From a virus: DNA of 51,789 nucleotides. A program made the position numbers and the translations under genes. Positions 17,672 through 22,686 of the stretch are shown here, piece by piece; within the stretch, counting starts at the first letter, position 1, and the number at the start of each line of letters is the position of its first letter. The notes beneath the pieces were generated by a model. It had not been told where the DNA came from, made no database searches, and was given only the letters and a program-made list of their open reading frames with translations. The DNA lies in IMG/VR virus record IMGVR_UViG_3300027963_000100, positions 1 through 51,789 of that record; one strand, given 5' to 3'.

Positions 17672-17679
17672 CATAAATA
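17672..17679 (+). promoter_or_regulatory. Late-type promoter box (CATAAATA) upstream of gene 32
   Basis: CATAAATA differs from the T4 late octamer TATAAATA by one base. It lies before the terminator-like hairpin and the pseudoknot, so its use for gene 32 would require read-through. Confidence 0.4.
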
Positions 17680-17688
17680 AAACACAGC

Positions 17689-17708
17689 AAGGATGCGGTG
17701 GCATCCTT
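17689..17708 (+). terminator. Hairpin, probable terminator
   Basis: AAGGATGC (17689-17696) and GCATCCTT (17701-17708) form an 8-bp stem with a GGTG tetraloop, followed by TCTTG. The U tract is short, so it may be a weak terminator of the upstream modular gene. Confidence 0.5.
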
Positions 17709-17738
17709 TCTTGAGGCAATTTAACCAGTTTCGTAGAA

Positions 17739-17771
17739 AACACAGACAAGGCTGTGTTAAAATAACCTTGT
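17739..17771 (+). promoter_or_regulatory. Predicted H-type pseudoknot in gene 32 leader
   Basis: Stem 1 is AACACAG (17739-17745) with CTGTGTT (17752-17758). The 6-base loop ACAAGG (17746-17751) is perfectly complementary to CCTTGT (17766-17771), giving stem 2. If the outermost A-U pair of stem 2 opens, loop 1 is a single A and loop 3 is the A-rich 17759-17765, the geometry of T4-group gene 32 pseudoknots. The knot lies 65 bases before the ATG, followed by an A/U-rich, weakly structured leader with a small TTTAAG/CTTAAA dyad (17780-17796). In T4 the equivalent knot nucleates gp32 binding and translational repression. Confidence 0.7.
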
Positions 17772-17836
17772 AGGCAGCATTTAAGTAGATCTTAAATTTT
17801 TAAATCATATTAACGCATATAGAAAGGCAACACAAT

Positions 17837-18847
17837 ATGGCATCACTAGCAGAAATTCGGGCTCGTTTGGCAGCCGCAGAAAACAAACAAGTCAGCCAAG
17901 GAACTGGATCCTCTGACATTTATCCACACTGGAACCTTAATGAAGGCGATTCTTGTACTCTGCGTTTCCTTCCCGATGGAAATACCAAAAACACATTCTT
18001 CTGGCAGGAACGTGCCATGATCCGACTGCCGTTTAGTGGCATCAAGGGCGAAATGGAATCCCGACAAGTCATGGTGCAAGTGCCATGCGTGGAGATGTGG
18101 GGCGATGCTTGCCCAATCTTGGCCGAAGTTCGCGGCTGGTTCAAGGACAAGAGTCTTGAAGAAATGGGTCGCAAATACTGGAAAAAGCGCAGCTACATTT
18201 TCCAAGGTTTTGTGCGTGAGAATCCACTAGCTGACGACAAGTCTCCTGAAAATCCAATCCGTCGCTTTATCATTGGTCCCCAAATCTTTACCACTATCAA
18301 AGGTGCCTTGATGGATCCTGAACTGGAAGAATTACCAACTGACTACCTGCGTGGTCTGGACTTCCGTATCAGCAAAGGAGCCAAGGGCGGTTTTGCTGAC
18401 TACAACGGATCAAAGTGGGCACGTAAGGAATCGGCACTGACCGAAGCCGAGTCTGCTGCCATTGAGCAACATGGCTTGTTTGACCTGAGCACATTCTTGC
18501 CCAAGAAGCCCTCTGACGTTGAGTTGAAAGTGATCAAAGAAATGTTTGAAGCTTCGGTAGACGGCCAGCCCTACGACACCGAGCGTTGGGGCAGCTACTA
18601 CCGTCCTGCTGGTGTACAAGCACCTGCTGGCGCTGCTGCAGCTTCATCCACAGCAGATGTGGACGAGGATGCTCCTGCTCGCTCTGCTGCCAAACCCATG
18701 GTCACAGCCAAACCTGCACCTGCAGCCGCCAGCTTTGACGACGAGGATGCGGAAGTTGCAGTTGCAGCAGCACCTGTGGCTGCAGCCAAGCCCGCACAAA
18801 AGGCCGAAGACATCTTGGCCATGATTCGTGCACGTCAACAGAAGTAA
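17837..18847 (+). CDS. 32: Single-stranded DNA-binding protein (gp32-like)
   Basis: The 336-residue protein matches T4 gp32 in architecture. A basic N-terminal LAST-like segment (IRARLAAAENKQ) serves cooperative self-contact. A central OB-type core includes TLRFLPDGN, the KKRSYIFQGFVREN strand and the FRISKGAKGGFADY segment. A long Ala/Pro linker with acidic patches follows (DVDEDAPA, FDDEDAE), needed in T4 for partner binding. The zinc site looks degraded: C-x7-C (VPCVEMWGDACPI) is present but the third Cys of T4's set is missing. AAAGG lies upstream of the ATG. It is followed by a terminator and uvsX. Confidence 0.92.
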   Translation: MASLAEIRARLAAAENKQVSQGTGSSDIYPHWNLNEGDSCTLRFLPDGNTKNTFFWQERAMIRLPFSGIKGEMESRQVMVQVPCVEMWGDACPILAEVRGWFKDKSLEEMGRKYWKKRSYIFQGFVRENPLADDKSPENPIRRFIIGPQIFTTIKGALMDPELEELPTDYLRGLDFRISKGAKGGFADYNGSKWARKESALTEAESAAIEQHGLFDLSTFLPKKPSDVELKVIKEMFEASVDGQPYDTERWGSYYRPAGVQAPAGAAAASSTADVDEDAPARSAAKPMVTAKPAPAAASFDDEDAEVAVAAAPVAAAKPAQKAEDILAMIRARQQK

Positions 18848-18858
18848 ATGACTAGCAA

Positions 18859-18888
18859 ACAGGCACAGAATTCTGTGCCTGTATTTTT
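18859..18888 (+). terminator. Rho-independent terminator between gene 32 and uvsX
   Basis: A perfect 24-base palindrome centred on GAATTC (18859-18882) is followed by ATTTTTT. It would end the gene 32 message and separate it from uvsX, which then needs partial read-through or its own promoter. Confidence 0.88.
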
Positions 18889-18905: not shown

Positions 18906-19970
18906 ATGGCCAAGCCGTTTGACGTCTCGAAATTTCGCAAGGAAATTACCAAATCAATTGATGGACTTTCTATCGGTTTTAACGATCCCACAGACTGGAT
19001 TTCAACAGGTAACTATGCCTTGAACTATCTCATATCCGGGGACTTCCACCGTGGTATTCCCCTGGGCAAGGTTACTGTGTTTGCCGGGGAATCCGGTGCC
19101 GGCAAAAGCTACATCTGTTCAGGCAACATCATCAAAAATGCCCAAGAGCAAGGCATCTTTGTGGTGCTGATTGACTCGGAAAATGCCTTGGACGAGGACT
19201 GGCTCAAGGCCTTGGGTGTGGACACCAGTGAGAGCAAGTTGCTGAAACTGAGCATGGCCATGATTGATGATGTGGCCAAGACCATCTCTACCTTCATGAG
19301 TGACTACAAGGCCTTGCCCGACGGTGAGCGTCCCAAGGTGTTGTTTGTGATTGACAGCTTGGGCATGTTGCTCACACCCACTGACATCAACCAATTTGAT
19401 GCTGGAGACCTCAAGGGTGACCTGGGCCGCAAGCCCAAGGCACTCACAGCCCTGGTACGCAACTGTGTCAACATGTTTGGATCATACAACGTGGGCTTGG
19501 TATGTACCAACCACACCTATGCTAGCCAGGACATGTTTGATCCCGATGACAAGATTTCAGGTGGTCAGGGTTTTATCTATGCCAGCTCCATTGTGGTGGC
19601 CATGAAAAAACTCAAGCTCAAAGAGGACGAAGATGGCAACAAGATTTCAGATGTCATGGGCATTCGATCAGCTTGCAAGGTCATGAAAACACGCTATGCC
19701 AAACCCTTTGAGGGAGTGCAGGTCAAGATACCCTACACCACTGGCATGAGTCCACATTCCGGGCTGGTTGATCTGGCTGAGAAAAAAAATCTTCTCAAGA
19801 AAGAAGGCAACAGTTTGGTATTTGTTACCAGTGATGGCGAAATTATCAAACAGTTTCGTAAAAAATGGGAATCAAACGAGAATGGTAGTCTGGATCGACT
19901 CATGGCAGATTTTAGAAATCAAAAGATCACAACCGAAACAGTAGAAGAATCACAGGAGGATGCAGAATGA
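18906..19970 (+). CDS. uvsX: RecA-like recombinase UvsX
   Basis: The 354-residue protein has the RecA core: Walker A GESGAGKS (residues 61-68) and Walker B VLFVIDS (about 139-145). The DNA-loop and filament regions follow (NHTYASQDMFDPDDKISGGQG). UvsX coats gp32-covered single-stranded DNA with the help of UvsY and drives strand exchange and recombination-dependent replication. Here the partner genes gp32, uvsY and uvsW are all within the window. TAAGGAAAAAC before the ATG is a usable RBS. Its stop overlaps the next start (ATGA). Confidence 0.95.
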   Translation: MAKPFDVSKFRKEITKSIDGLSIGFNDPTDWISTGNYALNYLISGDFHRGIPLGKVTVFAGESGAGKSYICSGNIIKNAQEQGIFVVLIDSENALDEDWLKALGVDTSESKLLKLSMAMIDDVAKTISTFMSDYKALPDGERPKVLFVIDSLGMLLTPTDINQFDAGDLKGDLGRKPKALTALVRNCVNMFGSYNVGLVCTNHTYASQDMFDPDDKISGGQGFIYASSIVVAMKKLKLKEDEDGNKISDVMGIRSACKVMKTRYAKPFEGVQVKIPYTTGMSPHSGLVDLAEKKNLLKKEGNSLVFVTSDGEIIKQFRKKWESNENGSLDRLMADFRNQKITTETVEESQEDAE

Positions 19971-20239
19971 GCGTGGATGTTATCAGCGAAATTTGGACCG
20001 AACTCAAGCGATATGTCAATGTGGTTGATCGCGGCGACGCAGCTGAATCCATTGTGTCTATCCTGATAGATCATGACATTGATGCTGATGAAATACGCAC
20101 CTGGTTCAAAGGCGACGGCGACATCAAAACCGCCTTAAGTGATTACCTGGCTACCGATACCGATTCGAATGATATGCTAGAGGAGGACTCAGAAGAAGAC
20201 GATGATTTCAGTGAAGACGATGAGGACGACTGGGATTAA
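19967..20239 (+). CDS. Small acidic protein coupled to uvsX
   Basis: A 90-residue protein with a folded helical N-terminus (VISEIWTELKRYVNVVDRGDAA) and a highly acidic tail of Asp/Glu from about residue 65 to the end. It starts inside the uvsX stop codon (ATGA), so translation is coupled. The same kind of small acidic protein follows uvsX in marine T4-like phages as far as I recall. The acidic tail may mimic DNA or bind gp32/UvsX. No catalytic motif; the role is not established. Confidence 0.75.
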   Translation: MSVDVISEIWTELKRYVNVVDRGDAAESIVSILIDHDIDADEIRTWFKGDGDIKTALSDYLATDTDSNDMLEEDSEEDDDFSEDDEDDWD

Positions 20240-20240
20240 T

Positions 20241-21491
20241 GTGACTGATCAATATTTTCCGATAAAAACGGCCACAGCGTGTTCTTTAAAATGGACCTGG
20301 AGTACGTTGTATTTAAATTCAAACGAAACAGCATCCTGTCATCGAACGGGATTTAGTAAACTAACCCTTGAGAATTTTGATAATTTTCATAACACTGAAA
20401 AAAAGATTTCGGAAAGAGAAGCAATGCTCAAGGGCCAGTGGCCAGTGGATAGTTGTAGTTATTGTCGGAATATTGAGCTAGCTGGTGGATTCAGCGATCG
20501 CATGTTGCACTCAAAAATTCCAGGTCAAGTACCTGTTGAATTAGTGTCAAACACCACTGCAACTACGGTGACACCCACTATTCTAGAGGTATTTTTTAAA
20601 AATACGTGCAATTTGTCATGTTTGTACTGCTTGCCAGAGTTGAGTTCAAAAATTAATCAAGAAAATCAAAAATTTGGAAAGTTTGAAAAAAACAGCGTAG
20701 AATTATCGACATACACACCCCCAACTTCTGTGGATTTGTTAATAGAAAAATTTTGGGATTGGATGCAAATAAATTCTCACAATCTGAAAAGATTTAATAT
20801 ACTCGGCGGCGAACCTTTTTATCAGCAAGAATTTGATCGTTGTTTGGATTATTTTGAATCGTCAATGCACCCGGATCTTGAAATAGGAATAGTTACCAAT
20901 TTATCAATGAGCCAGGATAGACTTGAAGTCTATCTTGACCGATTTAAATCGTTACTGGCAAAAAAACAAATTAAACGCATCGATCTTACGTGTAGTATCG
21001 ATTGTCTTGGTCCAGAACAAGAATTTGTCAGGCATGGGTTAGATCTTGAACAATGGATCAAAAATTTTGAATTATTGTTGCAAAAGAAATGGTTAACGCT
21101 CAATATAAATCAAACTATTAGTTTGTTAACAATAAAAACCATGCCCGAGTTATTGCAAAAAATGATTCAATGGAGAGAGATTAAACCAATTGGACACTAT
21201 TTTTCAGAGGTTTCTCCTCACCCTAGTTATCTCATGTCTAATGTTTTAGGATCTGGGATATTTGAAGATGATTTTGAAATTATTCTCAATCTCATGCCTG
21301 TCAGTACTGAGAAAGACCAACTTGCTAAAAAATACATGCAAGGTATTGCTGATTCGATTGTGAAATCTCAAAGAAACACATCTGAAATTTTAAAATTAAA
21401 AACTTTTTTAGACGAAAAAGATCGTAGAAGAGGTACCAATTGGAGGAAAACTTTTCCCTGGTTAGAATGTGAGATAGATCATGTGGTATAG
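20241..21491 (+). CDS. Radical SAM protein with twitch/SPASM-like features
   Basis: The 416-residue protein has the radical SAM cluster motif C-x3-C-x2-C in NTCNLSCLYCLPELSSKI, which would bind a 4Fe-4S cluster and S-adenosylmethionine. It also has a following ILGGEPFYQ (GGE motif). Upstream Cys in ASCHRTGFSK and DSCSYCRNIELAGG could hold an auxiliary cluster. I favour GTG 20241, directly after the previous stop, over the ATG at 20202, which would overlap. The gene is strikingly AT-rich (20641-20700 has 15 G/C in 60, against 31 in 60 at 21541-21600) and sits between uvsX and uvsY, so it looks inserted. Substrate unknown. Confidence 0.85.
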   Translation: MTDQYFPIKTATACSLKWTWSTLYLNSNETASCHRTGFSKLTLENFDNFHNTEKKISEREAMLKGQWPVDSCSYCRNIELAGGFSDRMLHSKIPGQVPVELVSNTTATTVTPTILEVFFKNTCNLSCLYCLPELSSKINQENQKFGKFEKNSVELSTYTPPTSVDLLIEKFWDWMQINSHNLKRFNILGGEPFYQQEFDRCLDYFESSMHPDLEIGIVTNLSMSQDRLEVYLDRFKSLLAKKQIKRIDLTCSIDCLGPEQEFVRHGLDLEQWIKNFELLLQKKWLTLNINQTISLLTIKTMPELLQKMIQWREIKPIGHYFSEVSPHPSYLMSNVLGSGIFEDDFEIILNLMPVSTEKDQLAKKYMQGIADSIVKSQRNTSEILKLKTFLDEKDRRRGTNWRKTFPWLECEIDHVV

Positions 21492-21936: not shown

Positions 21937-22686
21937 ATGTTTAAAAATCACGAGGAAAGTCACGAGCACAGTCTCGAAACACTAAACTTGTTCTACGAAT
22001 ACGACGACTTCATGGAAAGCGTGGGTACCTTGGCTGACCTGGGGTGCGGTGCTGGTCTAGATCTGGAATGGTGGGCCACACGCACCACACGAGACGATGT
22101 GCCACAACCACTTGAGATCAAGTGCACCGGTATCGACATCCTGGATTCCTTGCCAGTGGCGCATCGGTATCCCAACATGGTTTATCAGCGCAACGACTTT
22201 GAGCAGGCTGTGGATGCTCCGCCTACCCGATTCGATGTGCTGTGGTGTCACGATGCTTTTCAATACTGTATCAATCCTGTGGCTGCCTTGAGCCGTTGGT
22301 GGCATGCCACCAGTGATGGCGGTATGTTGGTGTTGATCCTGCCGCAAACAGCCAGTATTGTTCGCAGACAGTTGATTCACACACAGCAAAACGGGTGCTA
22401 TCATCATCATAGTCTTGTGAGTCTCATTCACCAACTGGCAGTGTCGGGTTGGGATTGTCAAAATGGATTTTTTCTCAAGCGACCCACGGACCCTTGGCTG
22501 CATGCCATAGCATACAAGAGCACCCACCAGCCCATGGATCCCAGAACCACCACCTGGTATGATCTGGCAGATCGTCAACTGTTGCCCGAATCAGCTGCTG
22601 AGGGTGTGCAGAGCCGTGGACACTTGGCTCACTCGGACTTGATCTTGCCCTGGTTGGACAAAAGTTTCATACACTACGGGGAATAA
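21937..22686 (+). CDS. SAM-dependent class I methyltransferase
   Basis: The 249-residue protein has a methyltransferase motif I (LADLGCGAGLDLEWWA, about 28-43). It continues with an acidic motif II strand (CTGIDIL), a motif IV-like FDVLWCHDAFQYCINPV and a GGMLVLILPQ strand. This is the small-molecule or sugar methyltransferase type (UbiE/FkbM-like layout) rather than a DNA methylase; no catalytic D/NPPY is seen. It opens an island of glycosyltransferase genes, so methylation of a glycan is plausible. It begins 3 bases after uvsY. Confidence 0.8.
   Translation: MFKNHEESHEHSLETLNLFYEYDDFMESVGTLADLGCGAGLDLEWWATRTTRDDVPQPLEIKCTGIDILDSLPVAHRYPNMVYQRNDFEQAVDAPPTRFDVLWCHDAFQYCINPVAALSRWWHATSDGGMLVLILPQTASIVRRQLIHTQQNGCYHHHSLVSLIHQLAVSGWDCQNGFFLKRPTDPWLHAIAYKSTHQPMDPRTTTWYDLADRQLLPESAAEGVQSRGHLAHSDLILPWLDKSFIHYGE

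Follow-up and report, generated by a model that had tools for sequence, protein, structure and literature searches.

A covarying pseudoknot in the leader of a phage gp32-like gene, a putative part of a T4-like autogenous operator

Introduction

The gp32 protein of phage T4 acts as a repressor of its own translation: it nucleates on a pseudoknot in its mRNA and then spreads through UUAA(A) repeats as far as the ribosome-binding site (RBS) (PMC535899, PMC3014915). Both the knot and the UUAAA repeats are required for this repression (PMC535899). The gene 32 mRNA is unusually stable, with an RNase E cleavage site at -71, immediately before the knot (PMC3014915), and the middle and late promoters of gene 32 are located inside segG (PMC2988022). 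A 2010 review described the T4-type gene 32 knot as perhaps the sole viral pseudoknot for translational autoregulation and listed RB49 as being without one (PMC3014915).

Here, we describe a pseudoknot upstream of a gp32-like gene of an uncultured phage, IMG/VR virus record IMGVR_UViG_3300027963_000100, of which 51,789 nucleotides, hereafter the window, were analyzed, and we compare it with the leaders of related phages.

Results

An H-type pseudoknot lies on the plus strand at 17739-17771, with its 3' end 65 nt before the ATG at 17837 of the gp32-like gene. An earlier note had claimed a 7-bp stem whose 6-base loop is complementary to a downstream hexamer, 65 bases before the gene, and the sequence confirms this arrangement:

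17739-17745, plus strand: 5' strand of stem 1 (S1), AACACAG; inner pairs with compensatory changes
17746-17751, plus strand: 5' strand of stem 2 (S2), ACAAGG, which is also the S1 loop; S2 covariation, permutation z 9.7
17752-17758, plus strand: 3' strand of S1, CTGTGTT; compensatory changes
17759-17765, plus strand: L3, AAAATAA, 7 nt; 7-9 nt in relatives
17766-17771, plus strand: 3' strand of S2, CCTTGT; S2 covariation

All seven S1 pairs are Watson-Crick, and the ACAAGG loop exactly complements CCTTGT. Because a fully paired S2 would leave an L1 of 0, its outer A-U pair is probably not closed; L1 is then 1 nt and S2 5 bp long, as in the geometry of the relatives. When both strands of the 51.8 kb were scanned, this was the only Watson-Crick pseudoknot with such 7+6 geometry, compared to a chance expectation of 0.033 per plus strand in random windows of the same dinucleotide composition (first-order Markov), and 2 of 20,000 randomized leaders contained one. 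The minimum free energy of the whole leader is unremarkable (z -0.9), so folding energy alone could not have revealed the knot. No match at the Rfam gathering score was obtained for the window or eight relatives; weak sub-threshold hits to snoRNAs were taken as chance, and we rejected this identity for the leader.

The earlier note had named covariation as a check on the knot, and when run on the leaders of relatives this check was strongly positive. When IMG/VR was scanned twice by protein and twice by DNA pattern, 186 distinct gp32 leaders were recovered. The knot is present in 95 of them, and these collapse to 48 distinct elements with 6-7 bp in S1 and 5-6 bp in S2; a search with a long TTAAATATAAATA pattern gave no hits. 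S2 occurs in about ten different sequences that are nearly always self-complementary (ACAAGG/CCTTGT, ACAGG/CYTGT, ACAGTC/GACTGT, ACAGC/GCTGT, ACAAC/GTTGT, ACGAC/GTCGT, CCTAG/CTAGG, CTTAG/CTAAG, CCCAG/CTGGG, and CAGTG/CACTG), and the 30 distinct combinations of loop and 3' segment pair far better than permuted ones (z 9.7). Since a MAFFT alignment of all 48 elements shifted the stem-2 register, we used a gap-free subset of 15 elements, in which 98.7% of S2 cells were paired, changes on both sides were found at four of five S2 pairs and two of six S1 pairs, and the covariation score was 0.449 compared to 0.107 when shuffled and at most 0.153 when slid. The sole difference between L163 and L138 is a change from G-C to A-U within S2, and the series ACAAG/CTTGT, ACAGG/CTTGT, and ACAGG/CCTGT passes from A-U through G-U to G-C. 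The distance between the S2 halves varies by 1-3 nt, even where S2 is identical (L081 and L164; L178 and L191). Compensatory changes in S1 sit at inner pairs, while the outer pairs hardly vary, in part a consequence of the ACAC and GTGT built into the DNA patterns; leaders found by the protein search alone show the same S1 core, except for two G-U variants (L275 and L282).

Outside gp32 leaders, we did not find the paired element. A scan of bacterial genome contigs for a host link gave 40 chance matches to the consensus, none with gp32. Their mean S2 complementarity was 2.8, compared to 5.06 for the elements before gp32 (p 5e-9), and it did not exceed 4 in 20 viral matches that had no gp32. 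Together, these findings leave us highly confident that this is a real pseudoknot whose pairing is under selection.

The gene downstream of the knot is a gp32 homolog according to PHROG and hhalign:

17837-18847, plus strand: gp32-like ssDNA-binding protein, 336 aa; PHROG 1192, PHROG 224, and T4 gp32 profile matches
18906-19970, plus strand: UvsX-like recombinase; PHROG 97, E 4e-67

The gp32-like protein matches the SSB family PHROG 1192 with an E value of 5e-68, PHROG 224 (SSB) more weakly (E 2e-5), and T4 gp32 by hhalign (91.6%, E 8e-7), while a Pfam search gave no match and a PDB sequence search gave nothing meaningful. Its AlphaFold model (pLDDT 54) was too poor for a fold search. The alignment with T4 gp32 shows that the zinc ligands are partly kept and the Cys-X2-Cys part is missing, so the zinc site may differ from that of T4 or be absent. 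The order gp32-uvsX is common to the cultured jumbo phages PBECO4, RaK2, GAP32, XaC1, and Phosso. In addition, a strong terminator-like hairpin with a T-run lies between gp32 and uvsX (18859-18882), a radical-SAM domain protein (PHROG 1802) is encoded shortly after uvsX (20202-21491), and an open reading frame (ORF) further downstream (21937-22686) reads like a putative methyltransferase.

Between the knot and the start codon, the window contains a UUAA(A)-rich leader, as in T4:

17772-17836, plus strand: A/U-rich leader with four UUAA units (17781, 17792, 17800, and 17810); TTAA counts
17779-17797, plus strand: weak hairpin, ATTTAAG/CTTAAAT; present in most knot-bearing relatives
17823-17827, plus strand: Shine-Dalgarno sequence, AAAGG

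From L3 to the ATG, A and U make up 71% of the leader. Knot-bearing leaders contain 3.04 TTAA per 65 nt versus 1.20 expected from dinucleotides, while knot-less leaders contain 0.64 versus 0.78 expected; this signal is limited by the shared ancestry of the knot-bearing leaders and stems in part from the ATTTAAG/CTTAAAT hairpin. Because of this weak hairpin, the downstream leader may not be simply unstructured; a stem of at least 5 bp was present in 93 of 95 knot-bearing relatives and also in 65% of randomized leaders. Separately, AGGCAAC is present once in the window leader (17825-17831) and as two to four copies in many relatives, where the repeats lie between the promoter and the start codon; the last copy often contains the Shine-Dalgarno sequence, and in L030 the knot module sits between two copies.

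Two features lie upstream of the knot:

17672-17679, plus strand: CATAAATA, a box resembling the T4 late promoter; ATAAATA counts and relatives
17689-17708, plus strand: hairpin AAGGATGC-GGTG-GCATCCTT, predicted near the 5' end of a transcript initiated upstream; hairpins in relatives

All four copies of ATAAATA in the window are intergenic, though intergenic DNA makes up only 7% of it. Among knot-bearing relatives free of an endonuclease insert, nearly all have a box of the ATAAATA or CTAAATA type ahead of the knot, and L030, L161, L098, L107, L055, and others have a sigma-70 promoter there. In the window itself, the region ahead of the knot yielded the ATAAATA box but no good sigma-70 promoter. 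Since one or the other signal precedes the knot in nearly all insert-free relatives, the knot can be part of the mRNA. The hairpin begins about 6-12 nt after ATAAATA in most relatives, with arms that vary yet stay complementary. We rejected a terminator as its main reading, as the equivalent in relatives follows ATAAATA and mostly has no T-run.

Together, these findings suggest that the element probably acts at the RNA level, and on balance we consider it a cis-acting RNA pseudoknot that forms part of a two-part, T4-like autogenous translational operator of gp32. Transcripts begun upstream, here at the late-type CATAAATA box, would carry the knot; gp32 in excess of single-stranded DNA (ssDNA) would nucleate on it and spread cooperatively along the UUAA-rich leader, covering the Shine-Dalgarno sequence and repressing translation. 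The co-occurrence of knot and UUAA enrichment is the best functional evidence for such an operator. Points that we count against it are the absence of the knot from about half of the close relatives, the want of a good sigma-70 promoter ahead of the knot in the window, the few UUAA units in some knot-bearing leaders, such as L008, and the missing Cys-X2-Cys. The grades that we give to the knot, to its action as RNA, and to the T4-like operator are judgements and were not computed.

An RNA pseudoknot could also serve a role that does not involve gp32, for example by protecting the 5' region of the mRNA, marking a point for RNase processing, or binding another factor. The RNase E cut and the unusual stability of the T4 gene 32 mRNA (PMC3014915) would fit such a role, as would the covarying hairpin near the predicted transcript start. 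We think this unlikely, since the knot was found only before gp32, along with the UUAA enrichment that corresponds to the second half of the T4 operator.

The knot also overlaps promoter-like signals:

17733-17739, plus strand: conserved GTAGNAA block containing TAGNAA, a possible -35-like hexamer; in nearly all of the 48 distinct elements
17758-17763, plus strand: TAAAAT, a -10-like box spanning the S1 end and part of L3; promoter-like, with TG before the box

The -10-like box is TATAAT in 33 of 48 elements and TAAAAT in the other 15, so that TAWAAT is invariant, and its distance from TAGNAA is 17 nt in 45 elements and 18 nt in 3, despite small insertions and deletions. Ten genome records had GTAGNAA-N-TAWAAT at the gp32 leader, and matches at other sites did not rise above background, so we rejected a general middle-promoter motif.

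These signals raise the alternative that the element is a promoter-operator in double-stranded DNA, with a sigma-70-type TAGNAA-N17-TAWAAT promoter whose interleaved inverted repeats bind a dimeric regulator and with no RNA pseudoknot at all. Such an operator could likewise covary, and besides the maintained spacing, two points speak for it: in the W-type leaders, the search ahead of the knot gave no good sigma-70 promoter, and knot-less relatives carry, in a comparable position, TTGACN-N17-TAYACT with a dyad over the -10. On the other hand, S2 takes about ten unrelated sequences among phages whose gp32 proteins are mostly 79% or more identical, and a DNA-binding protein would need new recognition for each. 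A shift of 1-3 bp between half-sites is rarely tolerated by a dimer, a single element was found in each genome record and therefore no regulon, and several leaders have a sigma-70 promoter upstream of the knot (L030, L161, L098, L107, and others). The free change of S2 with pairing retained, the variable spacing, the G-U series, and the gp32-only location thus favor the RNA reading, and we regard the DNA operator as improbable.

Most knot-less leaders have a clear TTGACN-N17-TAYACT promoter (L001-L004, L006, L012, L036, L044, and others), often with TAAATA just upstream and with a variable dyad over the -10, e.g., GCGCATATACT...AGTGTTTGCGC, and this site resembles either an operator or a promoter combined with a terminator. 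Another candidate operator dyad, TAGTAGA...TATAATCTACTA, flanks the -10 directly before an ATGGCAGCGAAAAA start in phages of an unrelated group (L084, L087, L101, L113, L121, and others).

The fixed 17-nt spacing also counts against the RNA operator, as it suggests a promoter at the same site, with transcripts that start after the knot. A promoter embedded in the knot, with TAWAAT in L3, would be a new point and is possible from the sequence. Tentatively, we propose that the element could be promoter and RNA operator in one, with L3 as the sigma-70-type -10, and that endonuclease genes may spread the knot module. If so, late transcripts from upstream would bear the knot and be repressed by gp32, transcripts from the embedded promoter would start past the knot and escape, and the choice of promoter would set a time switch for gp32, while homing-endonuclease genes that overlap the knot may move the module between phages.

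Since gp32 binds ssDNA and covariation alone cannot separate RNA from ssDNA, the knot could instead form in ssDNA, with a role in replication or recombination close to the SSB gene; for the STAXI motif, its authors once suggested such a reading (PMC2864571). Two features make this very improbable for the knot: it always has the same place and orientation ahead of the gp32 start codon, beside promoters, and S2 shows the A-U, G-U, and G-C series. Chance complementarity has only the short length of the stems in its favor and is refuted by the covariation and by the natural controls, that is, the bacterial and viral off-target matches.

Discussion

The earlier note had proposed that the arrangement is conserved with T4 and retained from it. 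The T4-like arrangement itself stands, with a knot, an A/U-rich leader of UUAA repeats, and an RBS, but its retention from T4 is not supported, since the two knots share no sequence, their stems differ in size, and presence on the tree is patchy. No knot of this type was found in eight cultured relatives, which are jumbo phages, and about half of the close environmental relatives are also without one, so the knot is not essential for gp32 control. A quick gp32 tree of 181 proteins implies about 22 changes in knot presence, a rough count given uneven branch support, with at least 8 forced by well-supported branches. The absence from cultured relatives, the many gains and losses, and the lack of similarity to T4 leave common descent with the T4 knot unsupported, and we consider parallel origin or exchange just as likely. 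With roughly 90 distinct, strongly covarying knot leaders beside close knot-less relatives, the contribution of the knot to gp32 control becomes accessible to study.

Homing endonucleases may be relevant to this history. In 14 of the 48 elements, a homing-endonuclease-like ORF extends into the knot, terminating within it or a short distance beyond, and a comparison of L030 with L015 resembles a knot module inserted between AGGCAACT repeats. Two endonuclease-like ORFs that we scanned gave no significant Pfam match and only weakly matched PHROG 314 (E 5e-8) and PHROG 19446 (E 7e-4). Such ORFs lie upstream of gp32 in L163, L158, L142, L120, L086, L117, L136, L267, and others, several with zinc-finger-like C-termini, and the stop codon of each frame (..NLTSLVVNTDSRVYNQL*) falls within the pseudoknot or directly behind it, as is the case for T4 segG (PMC535899). 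Endonuclease frames that enter the knot thus repeat the segG pattern, which suggests either that gene 32 is generally a place of homing sites or that the regulatory module is mobile.

Among other known systems, the STAXI motif (PMC2864571) is likewise a pseudoknot near SSB genes, but it consists of two to three tandem knots, frequently capped by UUCG tetraloops, and lies near genes for DNA handling, whereas here we found a single knot with no Rfam hit. The Escherichia coli rpsO (S15) operator, named in PMC3014915, also combines autogenous repression with a leader pseudoknot, although it concerns a ribosomal protein and an unrelated gene. Compared to the gene 32 operator of T4, the element described here has no evident sequence similarity to the leader or to the knot, whose helix in T4 is a 7-bp GCTATGA/TCATAGC; it has an invariant TAWAAT in L3 and GTAGNAA before S1, its presence is patchy, and its ligand is putative. 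On the other hand, it shares with T4, T2, and RB69 an H-type knot tens of nucleotides before the gp32 start (-67 in T4), an A/U-rich UUAA(A) stretch into the RBS, a gp32-like product, and a late-type promoter upstream. As with T4 segG, where we located the TGA at 2712-2710 of L322 within the GCTATGA of the knot, a homing-endonuclease frame enters the knot in some members.
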